Assembly: GCA_019400425.1 (NCBI GenBank)
Contig: JAFREE010000097.1
Location: forward strand, 27,884-91,883
Direction: 5' to 3'
Source of the DNA: Hymenochaete sp. R1
Taxonomy: Eukaryota > Basidiomycota > Agaricomycetes > Hymenochaetales > Hymenochaetaceae
DNA length: 64,000 nucleotides
Shown: piece after piece, positions 40,284 through 47,435 of the stretch
Numbering within the stretch: position 1 is the first letter of the stretch
How the letters are laid out: every line of letters begins with the position of its first letter
Notes under the pieces: model-generated
Seen by the model: the letters and a program-made list of their open reading frames with translations, nothing else
Database searches by the model: none
Told to the model about the DNA's origin: nothing
Translations under genes and position numbers: made by a program

Positions 40284-42771
40284 CTACTCTTCGTGAACCA
40301 GAGCAGAGTTACCATCAGCCGTCTGCAACGCTTGGATGATCTTTTCGCGGGGAAGCCAGTTCTCTTCCGGTACAACGATGAAGCTGACGACACCGAATAA
40401 AGTGGCAGCGCCGAATATGACACACGCCTTCCCAACAATTCATCAGCCGAAGCTTTCAGATTAAAAGAATCAACGGCTTGACACTTACGAAGTTAAAGGA
40501 CTCTGCCTCCACGGGGAAGTAGAACGGCGAGATCATAACCGCAAATACAAGCCCATTAAACAACGCCGCGGCGAGATAACACAACTTCCTATACTTCCCC
40601 AAATAATAATACGAAGCCTTGAAGTGGTTCGGAGTCATTGTCAGCCTCAGCAACGAAATCAATCCGTAAGCAGCGATCGTCGGGATACCGCCTGCTGAGA
40701 TGAGCGACGTGAAGGCGACTTGGCTAGGGAGGATCGTGCAGAGTAGTGCAGCGCCGAAGACGAACATGACGGTGACGGCGTGTCGAGGTTGGCCATCTGA
40801 GGTGACTTGCCCGATCCAGCTCGAAAAGGGGAGAACTCCATCACGCGCAACAGCAAAGATGAGGCGGGAGGCGGCGACGATGGCGATGCTTGTGTTCTTT
40901 TAACATGGACGTTAGCAATGAGATTATTGTGATGAGTGCGGGGTGCCGTACCATGATAAGCCCAATAACTGCAACGATGGTCATGAATACCGCTCCTCCT
41001 TTACCAAGTGCAAGCGCATATATTTGAACGAATGGTTGAGGCGCTTCCAAGGCGAATAGGGTGTCGAGATCTGGAATGCAGAACAAGAAGAGGATGGTCG
41101 TGACGAATCCACAGACACCTGTTGCTACTGCGCTGGTGAATATTCCACGGGAAGCGACAACTCTAGCGTTGACGGTTCGTAAGATAAGACAAGGAGAGTA
41201 GGATACTGGTGATTCACTTTGCATTTTTGGTCTCTTCAGCAATATGGCCCGAAGCATCGAATCCGGTGAGGGTTCCAGCCGTAAATAAGCTAAATGAAAA
41301 ATAAGGCTTCAACGGAGAAAGGAAAGATGTAGTGACTTACAAAGACAGGATCCAATTCCATCCCGCGGGAGCTCCAGTCCCGTTGTCTTGATGGATAAAT
41401 TGCTTAGCATTGCGGCAAACATGGGGAATGAAAGGACAATACTCACAGGTCGAGGTGAAGACGTAGCTAGCGGATCTGAATCCATACGTCTTCGAGACGC
41501 CAATAGGAAGCCAAATCAGACACAGCAAGAAGTCCGCCATCATTATGAACATGGCAAGCTTAAACGCAGTGGAATACAGCTTTGGAGGAAGATAGTTGAT
41601 AGCGATGGATATAACAAGGAGCGCTTCCGACACGGCCCAGATGAAGGCTCTCCATTTGATGTTGTCATTAAATGTCCCGCCAGGAAAGTCGACCTCGAAG
41701 ACGGCGAGAAGCGATACAATGTAGTTGGCAACCGTCTGGCGCGGAGCAAGAAAGCTGAGTTAGTGGACGTAGCACATGATAGATGGATGGGCCGAAAGGT
41801 TCAACCTGGCAATTTCCTGCTGCAAACGTCATCCAAGCCGTGCACGACCACCAAGCGACAATGAAGCCAAAGAACCTCGCATATTTCGGCCCAGCGCTCT
41901 CCGCAGCCCATATGTAGATCGACCCGCTCAATGGCAAAGCTGAGCATATCTCAGCGAGTACAGCTGCGGTGATCCACATAAAGACGAGCGTGATCAAGTA
42001 CGAGGACCAAATGGCAGCGGGTCCGCCCGCGAGAAGTCCGAGAAAGAAGGCTGAGCTATTTTTGCAGGTCAGAACGTGTATAGATAGGCTATTTAGACGA
42101 AGAAAAGTGGAGGCACCGAACACCGCCGATGAAGTTGAGCGCACAGAAGCTAGCTGCAAAGCTCTCCACGAGGTGCCATGTACGATGCAATTGCTACATG
42201 GAACTGGTGTTAAGCCTACTTGACCTTTCAGAGTAAAAAGAGCTCACCTGTTTGTAACCAAGCTTTTGCTAAGACAAAAAAATCAAAGAGCGTCAGTCGA
42301 TCTGTAGGGGCCCCCTGAGAGGGGGCTGAAGGAATAGGTCAGCGACACTGGGGCTTCCCTACGCAGGTCTGAGCGCTGATCAGGTTCTAGCGGTATAATC
42401 TCAACCCGGGTCCGCCGTCGACGCCTCCCACGCCCAATGCTCAGAGCCAGCCATCCCGCACCTCACGCGGGAAATGGCAGCAATGGCAAATGGACGCTTC
42501 AGCGCCGAACGAGCTGGAAGCCCGGATACCCGCAGCCTTAATCCAGTGTAGCCACTAGAAATCGGACGTTACCAGTTCGATTGGATTTCAGACTTTATCT
42601 TTGGTTTTATGAATTAAAAACGCTTCAGCTCGCCCATTCCTGCATCCAGTCCGCCGGCACAGTGCGCGTCCCACTCTTTACGAGTCGAATTACCAGCTGG
42701 AGTTCATCCTGATCAATGGACGACGCATTTTCTGCATCAGATTTTGAGATCTGAGACTGAGTGTCTGCCAT
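40284..42771 (-). CDS. APC-superfamily permease, probable thiamine transporter (Thi9-like)
   Basis: Multi-exon. Exon 1 (42771-42694) encodes 26 residues (MADTQSQISK...DELQL). A roughly 420-nt intron with a TPP riboswitch follows, then a micro-exon QKLGYKQ (about 42272-42252), then HLVESFAASFCALNFIGGV. Membrane segments include FFLGLLAGGPAAIWSSYLIT, AEICSALPLSGSIYIWAAES, FTAGTLTGFDASGHIAEETK (APC signature with the conserved GFDASGH), TGVCGFVTTILFLFCI, FMTIVAVIGLIM, SIAIVAASRLIFAVARDGVL, and late helices near ISAGGIPTIAAYGLISLL. The gene ends VVPEENWLPREKIIQALQ...HEE. This subfamily includes Uga4 (GABA), Hnm1 (choline) and S. pombe Thi9 (thiamine). Sequence alone cannot separate these. The intronic TPP aptamer makes thiamine or a precursor the likely cargo. 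It begins only 192 bp downstream of eIF5B on the same strand. Confidence 0.88.
42309..42327 (-). other. GC-rich hairpin between aptamer and 3' splice site
   Basis: On the transcript strand GCCCCC-TCTCA-GGGGGC forms a perfect six-pair GC stem, about 40 nt before the intron's acceptor (TTTTTTTGTCTTAG). Candidate branch sites CTGAC lie on both sides. It may belong to the splicing switch (expression platform) or compact the intron end. Confidence 0.6.
42351..42470 (-). promoter_or_regulatory. Eukaryotic TPP (thiamine pyrophosphate) riboswitch in intron 1 of the permease
   Basis: On the minus strand the aptamer core reads GAGGTGC (42465-42459), a long P3 arm, TTGAGATTATACC (42404-42392), GAACCTGATCAG (42387-42376), and CTGCGTAGGGAAG (42366-42354). 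These match the conserved TPP elements (GGGGUGC, CUGAGAUUAUACC, ACCUGAUC, GCGUAGGGAA) in order and spacing. P2 can form as GGU/ACC, P4 as CCU/AGG and P5 as CAG/CUG. P3 is extended, as in many fungal examples. P1 could not be assigned by eye. It lies wholly inside the intron between codon 26 and LGYKQ. The block is markedly more GC-rich than the rest of the intron. Fungal TPP riboswitches act by changing splice-site choice. Confidence 0.88.
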
Positions 42772-42963: not shown

Positions 42964-45900
42964 TCACGGTATACCGAGTTTCTGTATGCCCCTGTCAGAG
43001 AATATTCAATGTAATAGAGCCCAATTCGTCAACTCACAGGTTTAAGTGCCTTGATAAGAAGCCACTCTTCGGTACTAACATCTGTTTTGAAAGTGGACTG
43101 ATTGCGCAAGTCAGAAACAATTCGAGGTCTAACTGTTGTTGCAAATTTACAGACCTTCAAGATGTCGATACTTTCGCGAGTGACGTGGCTGATGATATCA
43201 TCTTTTGTGTCAAAATGCCGTCCGAACATCTTCGCTGACTGATACACTGCATGTTCAATCTTCACAGCTACACCTCCACCAGCTTGAGACTTTTTGACAA
43301 TCTATGGAGACATTTTAGTATGATTGAAAACGGAAGATATGTGAGGGAATCTTACATCCATTGACTTGTGATTGATCTCTAGCGATGTGCTGCAGTTCAA
43401 TCGTTAGTGAGGATGTCAAGCAAAGTAACTTTGACACAAACATCTTTCCCAAATCAATAATCTCTTTCTTCTGCGTCTCCGGATCGATCTTCACGACACA
43501 CAATGGCGTCCCTACACGTAGTGTACCATCTAAGATATCAACGCCGAGGATAATGGGATCACGCTTCGCAAAGCAGGCGATGGTCTTTAAGCGACATGGC
43601 CATACAGCCTGTGGAGCTGCATCCTTCCGTTTCGCCTCCAGGATCTCAGCGTTGTACGCCGTGAAGGCGTCGAAGAGGTGGTAGATGATATCGGCTAGAA
43701 GGAGAACATATTGTGAGATCAAGTCGTAAATCATCCTGAAATACAAGCCTTTGAACAACTTGATCCCAAGTTCATCCGCCATCCTTTCCGCATCTCTATC
43801 GACAGGAACATCAAAACAGAGGATACACGCTAATTCCTTCGCTTTTTCCAACACAGTCGCACACCGCATGACATCCTTCTTGTGCACCGGGCCAATGTTG
43901 ATACCAGATACGGGAATTTTACTAGACTTCAAAAAGTCCAGTAAAGCCTCAAGCGAACCCAACGTACTGGCTTGCACGCATACTCCCCGTCCGGTTTTGT
44001 CGATGGAGTTGAGAAGACTCGTAAGATCACCCATGACTTCATCTCGCAGGTCATCTTCGTCGTCATCAGGACCGACAACTAGTAATCGGGAGCCAGCAAT
44101 GGCCTTTTCAAGATCGGGAGCAGAAATCTTGATACCCAGAGCCGCCTTGACTTCTTTATGATGCACGTATTGGGACTGTGGAACGTGAGTGAGACATATA
44201 CATAGAGACGAAAACAAACCGAAATAATTATACCTTTATCCTGAGTTCACGCAAGGGCTGAGGCGTGAGGAGTGCTCGGACCTGTGTGACGATTGGCCCA
44301 TTGAGTCCACACACCACTATCCTATCACCCTCTCGCAAAATACCATTTGACAGAACGACATCGATAGTTGTCCCCAGACCTTCAATCACCTTTACTTCGA
44401 GCACTGTACACTCCAGCTCTGATAAATACATAAGTCGGTCGCTCATCCGTTTCTGCGTAAGGTCAACAAGCAACATGATCATATCTGGAACACCCTCCCC
44501 GGTATGCGCTGATGTAGGGACCAATGAGACGTTTCGAGCAAAGTTTTTGTTGTCGTAGTATAAGCAGGCATTAAGACCTTGTTCGGCGAACTCAACTATC
44601 GTCTTTTGTACACGGTCCTCAAATTCACGTTGGACAGACGGTTTTTGCTTTGCGAGCGACTCTCGGAAGGCACCGTCTGGCGTTGCTTCCCAGCCGTACA
44701 ACCTATCAACCTAAGCGAAGTTCAATGTCGAAGTCTTCAGGTTCTGGGACGGAATGTTTATTTACCTTGTTTAACGCGACGATGAATGGTGTTTTCCTAT
44801 CCCTCAGAAGGCGAAGCGACTCCAGCGTTTGTGGCTCCAGACCGTGCTGATTCTAAAGTTAGTATTGACTTGTCATGATGTGATGAGGTTCGGACCCACC
44901 ATTAAATCGACAACGAGAATAGCAATATTACACAGAGAACTACCACGAGACCGTAAGTTCGTGAACGATTCATGTCCCGGAGTATCAATGATAAGTAAGC
45001 CAGGAATCTTGTAGTCATATGAACCGTCTTTATTCAAAACCGCCGTTTTTGTTTTGATCGCCTCGACAGGGAAGTACGTTGCACCGATCTGTTGTGTAAT
45101 ACCACCGGCTTCACCTTCTTGGACGTTTGTTTGACGGATCTACAGAATGTCTTTCAACATCAAGAAAGCGCAAAAAAACACGATTTCTCTCGTACCTTGT
45201 CTAACAGTGAGGTTTTTCCGGTGTCGACATGTCCAAGAATACAACAAATCGGACTACGCAGATCATCCTTATTCCGTGCGGCCAGTGCAGCCTCATGGGC
45301 CTTCGCTCTCCTCTCGGCCGCCTCCTGCTTTTTCTGCATCGCCAACTTTTGAGCATGCGTCATCTTCTCTTCTTCTGAGTCCGAGTCCGTCTCGTCGGAG
45401 TCATCGTCTGAATCTGAGTCTTCTGAGTCCTCTTCCGAATCAGATTCATCCTCCTCCTCTGATTCCGACTCTGCTTCTGCCTTCTTCGCTGCTGCAGGAG
45501 GAGCTTTGGCTGAAGGAGTAGCCTTTGCAATAGCTTTCGTGTTCGTCTCGGCAGATTCTGTAGGCGTAGCTTTGGGAATCAGTTTCGTGTTGTGAGTTTT
45601 CACTGAGGGCAGCGCCTCTGAAAGTTTTTTGGCTAAAGGAAGTATCAATAAACGTATCGGCACAGCGGTAGCGTGCAGATACCTTCCACTTCCTGTGTCT
45701 TTGCATCCTCGTCTCCGGAGCTTGCATCCCAGTCACTCTTCACGTCGGCTTCCTTCTCTGGTTCCGCCAATTTCTCATGGTCGCTCTCTGCGTCCCACTC
45801 ATCCTTTATATCTTGTGCTGGTGACACAGCGGACTGAGGTGTCGAAGGAGCTTCCGAAACTGGAAGATCTTGCGTTCTGACAGCAGGAGATTGAGTATCA

Positions 45901-47435
45901 GGTGTCGAGACTTGAGTTGAGGAAGCATCGTCAAAGTCCTTCTGAATACCCGATTTCTTCTTCTTGTTGCCATAGTTGACTTTCTTTGGTTTTTCTGCCG
46001 CCGGCTGGCGCAAACCCGCGATCATGCCCGACTGTTCCAGTAGCTGCCGCCGTAACTCGGCTTGTTTGGCTTCGGCCTTTTGCTTGGGTGTGAGAAGCTT
46101 GCCCTGTTTCTTCAGTTCTTCCTTCTTTTTCTGTACAAGAGAGTAAGTAATGACAACACGCTAAGAGGGTACAAATTATACCTTCTCTTTTTCTTTCTTC
46201 CTCAGTCGCTCTTCTTCTTTTCTTCTTTTCTCCTCCTCTTCCTTTGCCAGTTCGGCCGCGGCTAGCCGTTCCTCTTCCTCCCTCACTCTTTTTTCCTCTT
46301 CCTCTATCCGGTTCCTCTCTTCGATAGCTTTCCGTAGCTTTGCGCCGATACCACCTGTCTTCTTCGGCGCTTCTTCCTCCTTCTTAACTGGCTTCTTTTT
46401 CTTCTTTTTCTTTTTTCCGGCGGGTCCACCATCCTCGTCGTCGTCTTCCTCGTCTTCCTTCTCGTTCACGGGAACTGATGATTGTGCTGGTTCGTCTCCG
46501 ATTGTTTCAGGCGCAGGTGCGCTATCAACAGCCGCAACTTTTTTCGCAGCGGCTAGGGCCTTCTTCTTTGCCTGACGGCGTCTCAAAATGCATGCTGAGT
46601 CTAGGACGGGGTAGGTGAGCGGCTTACTTTCTCTTTCTCTTTCTTGGCTTTCTCCTTGTCCTTCTTCGACATAACTTTCGGCCCTTCATTCAGATCTTCA
46701 TCACCGACATCTTCGGCCTTCTGAGATTCCCCGGCAGCTGAGTGGACAAAGTTCTATAATACTGCAAACATTTCATGCAGCTGACATACACACCTTCGTC
46801 GATTTCGGTTTCTGTCTCTTTGGCTTTCTTCCCCTTCTTCTTTTTGCCACCCTTCTCCTTCACAGGCCCCCATTCTTCATCTGCAAGGTCATCGGCTGTC
46901 ACAGAGATACCCTGTGATGGTGCAGTAATATCTCCCTTGGCGGCGGCAGCTTCTCCGTCTGAACCTTCTCCGGGACCGGGACCATCTGCGAAAGAGACAG
47001 ACGCGGGGTCATCACCATCTGCAAGCGCCCCCAAGCCCGATTTTTTGGCCTTCTTCTTGTCTTTTTTGCCTTTAGTTGACGATTTGTTGATAGCAGCCTA
47101 ATTATCATAGTCAAGTCGCGCCTACAAATGCATCAATAATGGTGCTCACCATTAATCCACCGAAGTCATTTTCATCCTCCAGTCCTTCCTTGTCAACATC
47201 TATCCCCATATCTCTGAGATCATCAAACTTTGATTTTTGAGCTTTTGAGCTGGCATCCTCATCATCACCATCAAATGTCAGGTTCTGCACACCAACAGAC
47301 TCGCCCGCATTTGCCCTACATTTGCGTTTCATCAGGCCTTAGCCAATCGTGTGCCAAAGCAGTCGACGAAGCTCACCAATATTCGTCATCATCTTGCGGT
47401 TTCTTCCCTTTCTTCCCCTTGTTTTTAGGTGCCAT
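42964..47435 (-). CDS. FUN12: Translation initiation factor eIF5B
   Basis: Many exons. The start [20 protein letters not shown] leads into a long Lys/Glu-rich N-terminal region, as in all eukaryotic eIF5B. The G domain shows [19 protein letters not shown] (G1), [13 protein letters not shown] (G2), [20 protein letters not shown] (G3) and [14 protein letters not shown] (G4). Domain II ([40 protein letters not shown]), domain III ([40 protein letters not shown]) and domain IV ([40 protein letters not shown]) follow. An 18-nt terminal exon (42981-42964) yields the conserved end LKPKLGIP. Without it the frame would end LKPVS. eIF5B is the GTPase that joins the 60S subunit to the initiation complex and works with eIF1A. 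Identification is certain. Confidence 0.96.

Follow-up and report, generated by a model that had tools for sequence, protein, structure and literature searches.

A predicted TPP riboswitch with a long P3 helix in the first intron of an APC-type permease gene of Hymenochaete sp. R1

The first intron of an APC-type permease gene of Hymenochaete sp. R1 holds an element that, by its sequence and structure, is a TPP riboswitch and is predicted to bind TPP. It occupies positions 42352 to 42537 of the minus strand in the 64,000-nucleotide stretch of contig JAFREE010000097.1 that was analysed as a whole (hereafter, the window); all features described below lie on that strand. With a probability of about 0.86, we propose that this riboswitch governs the splicing of intron 1 in a permease that takes up thiamine or a thiamine precursor. 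A first inspection of the letters (hereafter, the sequence-only reading) had already assigned the element in intron 1 to the TPP aptamer class, an assignment that the sequence, the fold, gene models of relatives and published examples now support.

The permease gene comprises 10 exons (42771-40284) and encodes a product of 531 amino acids; its exons were set by hand, and the proposed model has homology and splice consensus as its basis. Exon 1 (42694 to 42771) holds 26 codons and ends in DELQL, exon 2 (42248 to 42268) has 21 nt encoding QKLGYKQ, and exons 3-10 span 40284 to 42193. Intron 1 (42269 to 42693), with donor GTAATTCG at 42693 and acceptor TTTTTTTGTCTTAG ending at 42269, is 425 nt long, six times the next longest, the other eight introns measuring 51-70 nt. 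It interrupts the conserved N-terminal motif DELQL/QKLGYKQ, between codon 26 and LGYKQ as anticipated. The product matches AA_permease_2 (PF13520) with an E value of 1.1e-46 and 160 bits against a Pfam cut-off of 27, in agreement with the APC-type permease proposed at the outset; among the matches listed, Pyrrhoderma noxium, whose genus belongs to Hymenochaetales, has the nearest public protein (86% identity), followed by Coniferiporia (82%) and Sanghuangporus (82%). When donor 42693 is left unused, an in-frame TGA is met at 42625 to 42627, so that the earlier expectation of a 48-residue product, with VIRLVKSGTRTVPADWMQEWAS followed by a stop upon intron retention, was correct. The first donor itself (GTAATTCG, 42693-42686) is weak. 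Two Suillus models (P0170 and P0185) read through it to give LQLVIRSS, where the window would give LQLVIRLV, which at the sequence level is consistent with a conserved weak donor; LVIN or LVIL is found at the same read-through in P0175, P0177 and P0191.

The aptamer was detected with the Rfam TPP model, RF00059, which matched 42441-42338 with 34.9 bits and E = 3.9e-5. The check proposed by the sequence-only reading thus gave a mixed outcome: the match has an E value of 4.3e-4 over the 27.8 Mb genome and is the sole one at E <= 0.001 (49 of 1035 first-look candidates scored), but it stays below the gathering score of 54.3, and at that threshold no match was obtained anywhere in the window. The core motifs of RF00059, namely UGAGA, CCUGAUC and GCGUAGGGA, are present in the correct order, and the conserved ligand-binding core (42356 to 42403), placed by the RF00059 alignment and motif location, consists of UGAGAU, the 3' strand of P2, GAACCUGAUC, P5 and GCGUAGGGA. 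Moreover, the motif pairs TGAGAT..GAACCTGATC and CCTGAT..GCGTAGGGA each occur exactly once in the genome, and the reversed-pattern control of each gave 0. The hallmark strings TTGAGATTATACC, GAACCTGATCAG and CTGCGTAGGGAAG were rightly recognized, in order and on the minus strand, but GAGGTGC, listed with them, is not the P2 box. A second TPP aptamer was not found in the genome, either with RF00059 (the same 49 of 1035 candidates) or with motif searches that allowed no mismatches, and four thiamine-pathway loci (L011-L014) gave no TPP aptamer match at E <= 1 with RF00059, a model that is weak on long P3 helices. Other sites with TGAGATTATACC, either exact (L002, L003) or with one mismatch (L005-L009, out of 69), lack aptamer context. 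In addition, viral contigs yielded neither a motif match nor a permease relative (9 pattern matches, 0 confirmed), and no sequence match was obtained among solved structures.

The 5' half of the aptamer was located by eye upstream of the core, as GGCUGCGGGUAUCCGGG starting from 42537. This half (GGCUGCGGGUAUCC / GGCTGCGGGTATCC, 42524 to 42537) supplies GGCU for P1 (42537-42534), GCGG for P2 (42533-42530), a G, a U and the AUCC that begins P3. GGCU pairs with AGCC (42355-42352), located immediately 3' of GUAGGGA, in a P1 of four pairs only; GCGG pairs with CCGC (42393-42390), with an additional U-A pair; and AUCCGGG pairs with CCCGGGU (42410-42404), immediately 5' of UGAGAU. The resulting P3 (42404 to 42527) is 124 nt long, carries GAGGTGC (42464-42458) at its apex, and is the same in the unconstrained minimum-energy fold. 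The closing order of P1, P2 and P3 is the canonical one, and the helices of the three-way junction are present in the long-P3 model. Together, the three helices reach a pairing score of 16 out of 16, and the maximum was 14 when the upstream intron was dinucleotide-shuffled 3000 times (0/3000 equal), in a test devised after the element at 42537 had already been noticed; P1 and P2 without P3 score 9, a value equalled by 11 of the 3000 shuffles. As 42537-42524 closes P1, P2 and the 124-nt P3, the aptamer extends from 42537 to 42352, with RF00059 covering its 3' part. The originally proposed interval, 42351 to 42470, hence leaves out the true 5' half, and GAGGTGC, then taken for the 5' (P2) box, was rejected as such because it sits in the apical hairpin of P3 and because no upstream strand was seen that would give it a P1 closure like that of the 42537 element.

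We also considered 42537-42524 as a separate regulatory element. Its pairing with the aptamer was equalled in 894 of 2000 shuffles and its pairing with the first-donor region in 68 of 2000, and the stretch makes more sense as the 5' half of the aptamer itself. The genome holds two exact copies of it, and 12 at one mismatch or fewer as compared to five for the reversed control. In the data set of PMC11683625, fungal P3 helices have a mean length of about 150 nt, and the same work reports that RF00059 often misses the full sequence once P3 exceeds about 60 nt. The corrected boundaries are new, and they carry a caution, namely that, in fungal aptamers with a long P3, the Rfam model can put the 5' half in the wrong place. 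Within P3, CAUUGGGC (42439-42432) can pair with GCCC(C)AGUG (42354-42346) at the 3' end of the aptamer, and this pairing might compete with P1 when no ligand is bound.

The aptamer core, its pairing and the stop codon can be read from the DNA; we infer TPP binding, the direction of the switch and the choice of donor. When TPP is scarce, donor 42693 would be joined to acceptor 42269, the entire intron would be removed and the 531-residue permease produced. When TPP is bound, the aptamer would close through the 124-nt P3 together with P1 and P2, and use of the first donor would drop; the intron would then be either retained or spliced from a later donor, the best candidate being GTAACGTC (42565 to 42572), a consensus match situated downstream of the stop codon and upstream of the aptamer. 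In both cases, the TGA at 42627-42625 would remain in the message and translation would stop after 48 residues. The splicing control with a truncated product put forward by the sequence-only reading is accordingly backed by sequence, fold, gene models and published cases, but the intron retention it envisaged is one of two plausible off outcomes. No helix that would link the aptamer to the donor region for switching was demonstrated, as complements of at least 8 nt were obtained in 49 of 200 shuffles; the candidate pairing of exon 1 TGATCAGG with aptamer CCTGATCA, 8 nt in length, is equalled or beaten by these and is not significant, and the best duplex energy was borderline (9 of 200 shuffles).

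The strongest rival to two-donor switching, to which we give somewhat less than even odds, is that TPP acts by plain intron retention, nonsense-mediated decay (NMD), or masking of a branch site or acceptor downstream of P1. CTGAC motifs, branch-like by consensus, lie within TCGCTGACC (42345-42337), just 3' of the P1 3' strand, and within CTGACGCTC (42296-42288). Moreover, the best candidate among the GT dinucleotides between the TGA and the aptamer, that at 42572 (GTAACG), is a poor donor, which favours retention or masking. Related sequences point in the same direction: among the 34 listed relatives with only jgi, lgn or ena sources (counted by hand), P0032, P0036, P0039 and P0056, whose sources are jgi or lgn, run through the border of intron 1 and exon 2 and otherwise encode the permease, while P0008, P0030 and P0042 contain the junction of exons 1 and 2, and nearly all of the rest begin further inside and are uninformative on intron 1. 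Judging by their short contigs, these sequences would be cDNA, and the presence of junction and read-through forms fits two message forms, or another first exon. Against retention or masking, the position of the stop codon between the first donor and the candidate second donor suits an alternative-donor design and resembles the published Type III layout; this arrangement is new here. Furthermore, the Neurospora cases studied experimentally use alternative donors, according to PMC5882874.

Regarding the transported substrate, matches were obtained in the genome for THI4 (E 1.1e-89), TMP synthase and HMP-P kinase, and two stretches matched thiamine pyrophosphokinase, one of them with two internal TGA codons that are probably within introns. 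The pyrimidine synthase NMT1/THI5, on the other hand, returned 0 candidates in the draft genome, in a search whose control was positive in 12 of 14 prokaryote genomes; this non-detection is new here, and since genes may be missing from a draft assembly and the control was prokaryotic, a pyrimidine requirement is put forward as a prediction. In S. pombe, thiamine is imported by Thi9, which is related to amino acid transporters, and TPP riboswitches have been reported for Thi9 orthologs (PMC5997356). Based on the riboswitch, on that literature and on the non-detection of NMT1/THI5, we infer that the permease carries thiamine or a precursor. A genuine TPP sensor controlling a permease with a different cargo, for example an amino acid, is unlikely on the latter two grounds, even though the Pfam and NCBIfam matches are to amino acid permease families and similar ones only (TIGR00907 reaches 226 bits, under its cut-off of 598) and the public homologs bear names of amino acid or GABA transporters. 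Overall, the aptamer and the non-detection of NMT1/THI5 suggest that this fungus must import thiamine or its pyrimidine half, for which the permease would be a regulated entry route.

Two further alternatives concern the aptamer itself. In the first, which we regard as quite improbable, the short-P3 form present in the RF00059 alignment (42441-42338) would be the correct fold, with CAUUGGGC and GCCC(C)AGUG forming eight pairs with one bulge, and the element at 42537 would be unrelated to it. The long-P3 model has a fold energy of -89.1 kcal/mol and the Rfam 5' placement -70.3 kcal/mol, which makes the short-P3 fold 18.8 kcal/mol worse, and, according to PMC11683625, the model often fails when P3 is long. 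The 42537 element also recurs in other fungi, and the Rfam 5' end at 42441 was ruled out by this recurrence and by the energies. The free minimum, at -93.5 kcal/mol, recovers P2 and P3, and lacks P1 and P4 because the 5' side of P1 there pairs with the P4 strand; the total fold energy is mildly low (z -1.70, with 10 of 200 shuffles equally good).

The recurrence was observed as pieces of aptamer mistranslated within public gene models of other Agaricomycetes, among relatives of the permease (120 listed of 818 over threshold, among 7999 candidates scored). The 3' half precedes the permease part in six of the 120 listed relatives, as EIIPLEP in P0040, P0047 and P0102, two of which also have LRREA, and as LR(S/L)YR..NL..TCVGK in P0035, P0036 and P0085. 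The 5' half, translated in different reading frames, was found in 9 of 201 proteins examined: as MAAGI in P0035, P0085 and P0185, as NGCGYP in P0128, P0129 and P0188 (all Armillaria), as WLRVS in P0036 and P0120, and as GLRVS in P0191, the last read from the printed sequence. All these peptides fit one DNA, TGGCTGCGGGTATCC, P0191 alone needing one extra base, and both halves occur in order in P0035, P0036 and P0085. P0127 and P0173, where EIIP lies inside eIF5B, and P0100, which has GCGY without the rest, were not counted. A targeted search for translated aptamers gave five candidates and found only two proteins, both already in the set. The translated TPP aptamer near the N-terminus of six public proteins is an annotation error that could be used to find more such riboswitches. 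The named genera with aptamer pieces are Mycena, Lentinula, Armillaria, Suillus, Pisolithus, Lactarius, Cyclocybe, Gymnopilus and Termitomyces. That the element could be what remains of a decayed TPP riboswitch that no longer works, as its low Rfam score and the difference between the aptamer fold and the minimum-energy fold might indicate, is as improbable as the short-P3 fold, given that the core motifs are intact and that pieces of both halves recur in these nine other genera.

The gene for eIF5B (43029 to 47338, with an approximate N-terminal limit; open reading frames and Pfam) lies directly upstream of the permease gene on the same strand, its stop codon (43031-43029) being located 257 nt ahead of the permease ATG; IF-2 and GTP_EFTU domains were found in two of three eIF5B fragments tested. 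An IF-2 domain is fused to the permease domain in 73 of 81 long permease-domain proteins (P0121-P0192 and P0201, from the best 7999 candidates scored), or in 69 of 81 by a stricter motif count; the eight without IF-2 are from Fusarium (seven) and Mycena (one). TPP aptamers, reported as unusual, were described in PMC5882874 in an eIF5B intron of Gloeophyllum trabeum and, for Postia placenta, in the 3' UTR of two copies of eIF5B, and the fused models include one from Neolentinus lepideus, which belongs to the same family as G. trabeum. As eIF5B adjoins the permease and is often fused to it in annotation, our analysis suggests that these published aptamers are probably the permease aptamer in fused or misassigned gene models. 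The neighbourhood is thus probably shared, but here the aptamer belongs to intron 1 of the permease and not to eIF5B. This would offer a simple account of the published TPP riboswitch in a translation factor gene, for which no printed correction was found among the papers searched, where PMC5882874 alone connected TPP riboswitches with translation initiation factor 5B. The last eIF5B codons (CCT GTG AGT TGA, 43043-43029) contain a good donor, GTGAGT, which immediately precedes the stop, and this donor (CCT/GTGAGT, 43037) is in phase with permease exon 2, whose acceptor ends at 42269. In at least 19 of the 73 fused models, eIF5B ...LK(P) is joined straight to that exon; such junctions are more simply explained by automatic gene prediction, and a real composite locus, in which TPP shifts splicing between a separate permease and a chimeric eIF5B-permease message, is highly improbable.

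Riboswitches of this kind are already known, since aptamers have been published for amino-acid-transporter and Thi9-type genes of Basidiomycota. According to Mukherjee et al. 2018 (PMC5882874), amino-acid-transporter genes with TPP aptamers are widespread across Basidiomycota, and TPPsw-AA is the most prevalent group in the Basidiomycota examined in PMC11683625, on medically relevant species; in both, as here, a TPP aptamer accompanies a permease of APC or amino acid type. The resemblance to Thi9-type transporters, in S. pombe and in the riboswitch-bearing basidiomycete orthologs for which PMC5997356 cites Moldovan et al., likewise lies in an amino acid permease relative with a TPP riboswitch, a likeness that comes by attribution in that literature. 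With the aptamer boundaries, the candidate donors and the premature stop in hand, one can move straight to the design of splicing tests on a group of riboswitches that the papers cited here report as a prediction only. The layout is like Type III of PMC5882874, in which an internal intron 200-400 nt long holds the aptamer, with two donors and a stop between them, and in which TPP would favour the second donor, a type presented there without experimental observation; here, too, the stop lies upstream of the aptamer and of a second donor candidate, but the intron measures 425 nt and that donor is a consensus candidate. Finally, the riboswitches of Neurospora crassa NMT1 and NCU01977 share with the present one an aptamer within an intron and the control of splicing, but they reside in other genes and were tested in the laboratory, where they use alternative donors, whereas in Hymenochaete sp. 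R1 splicing control is predicted.
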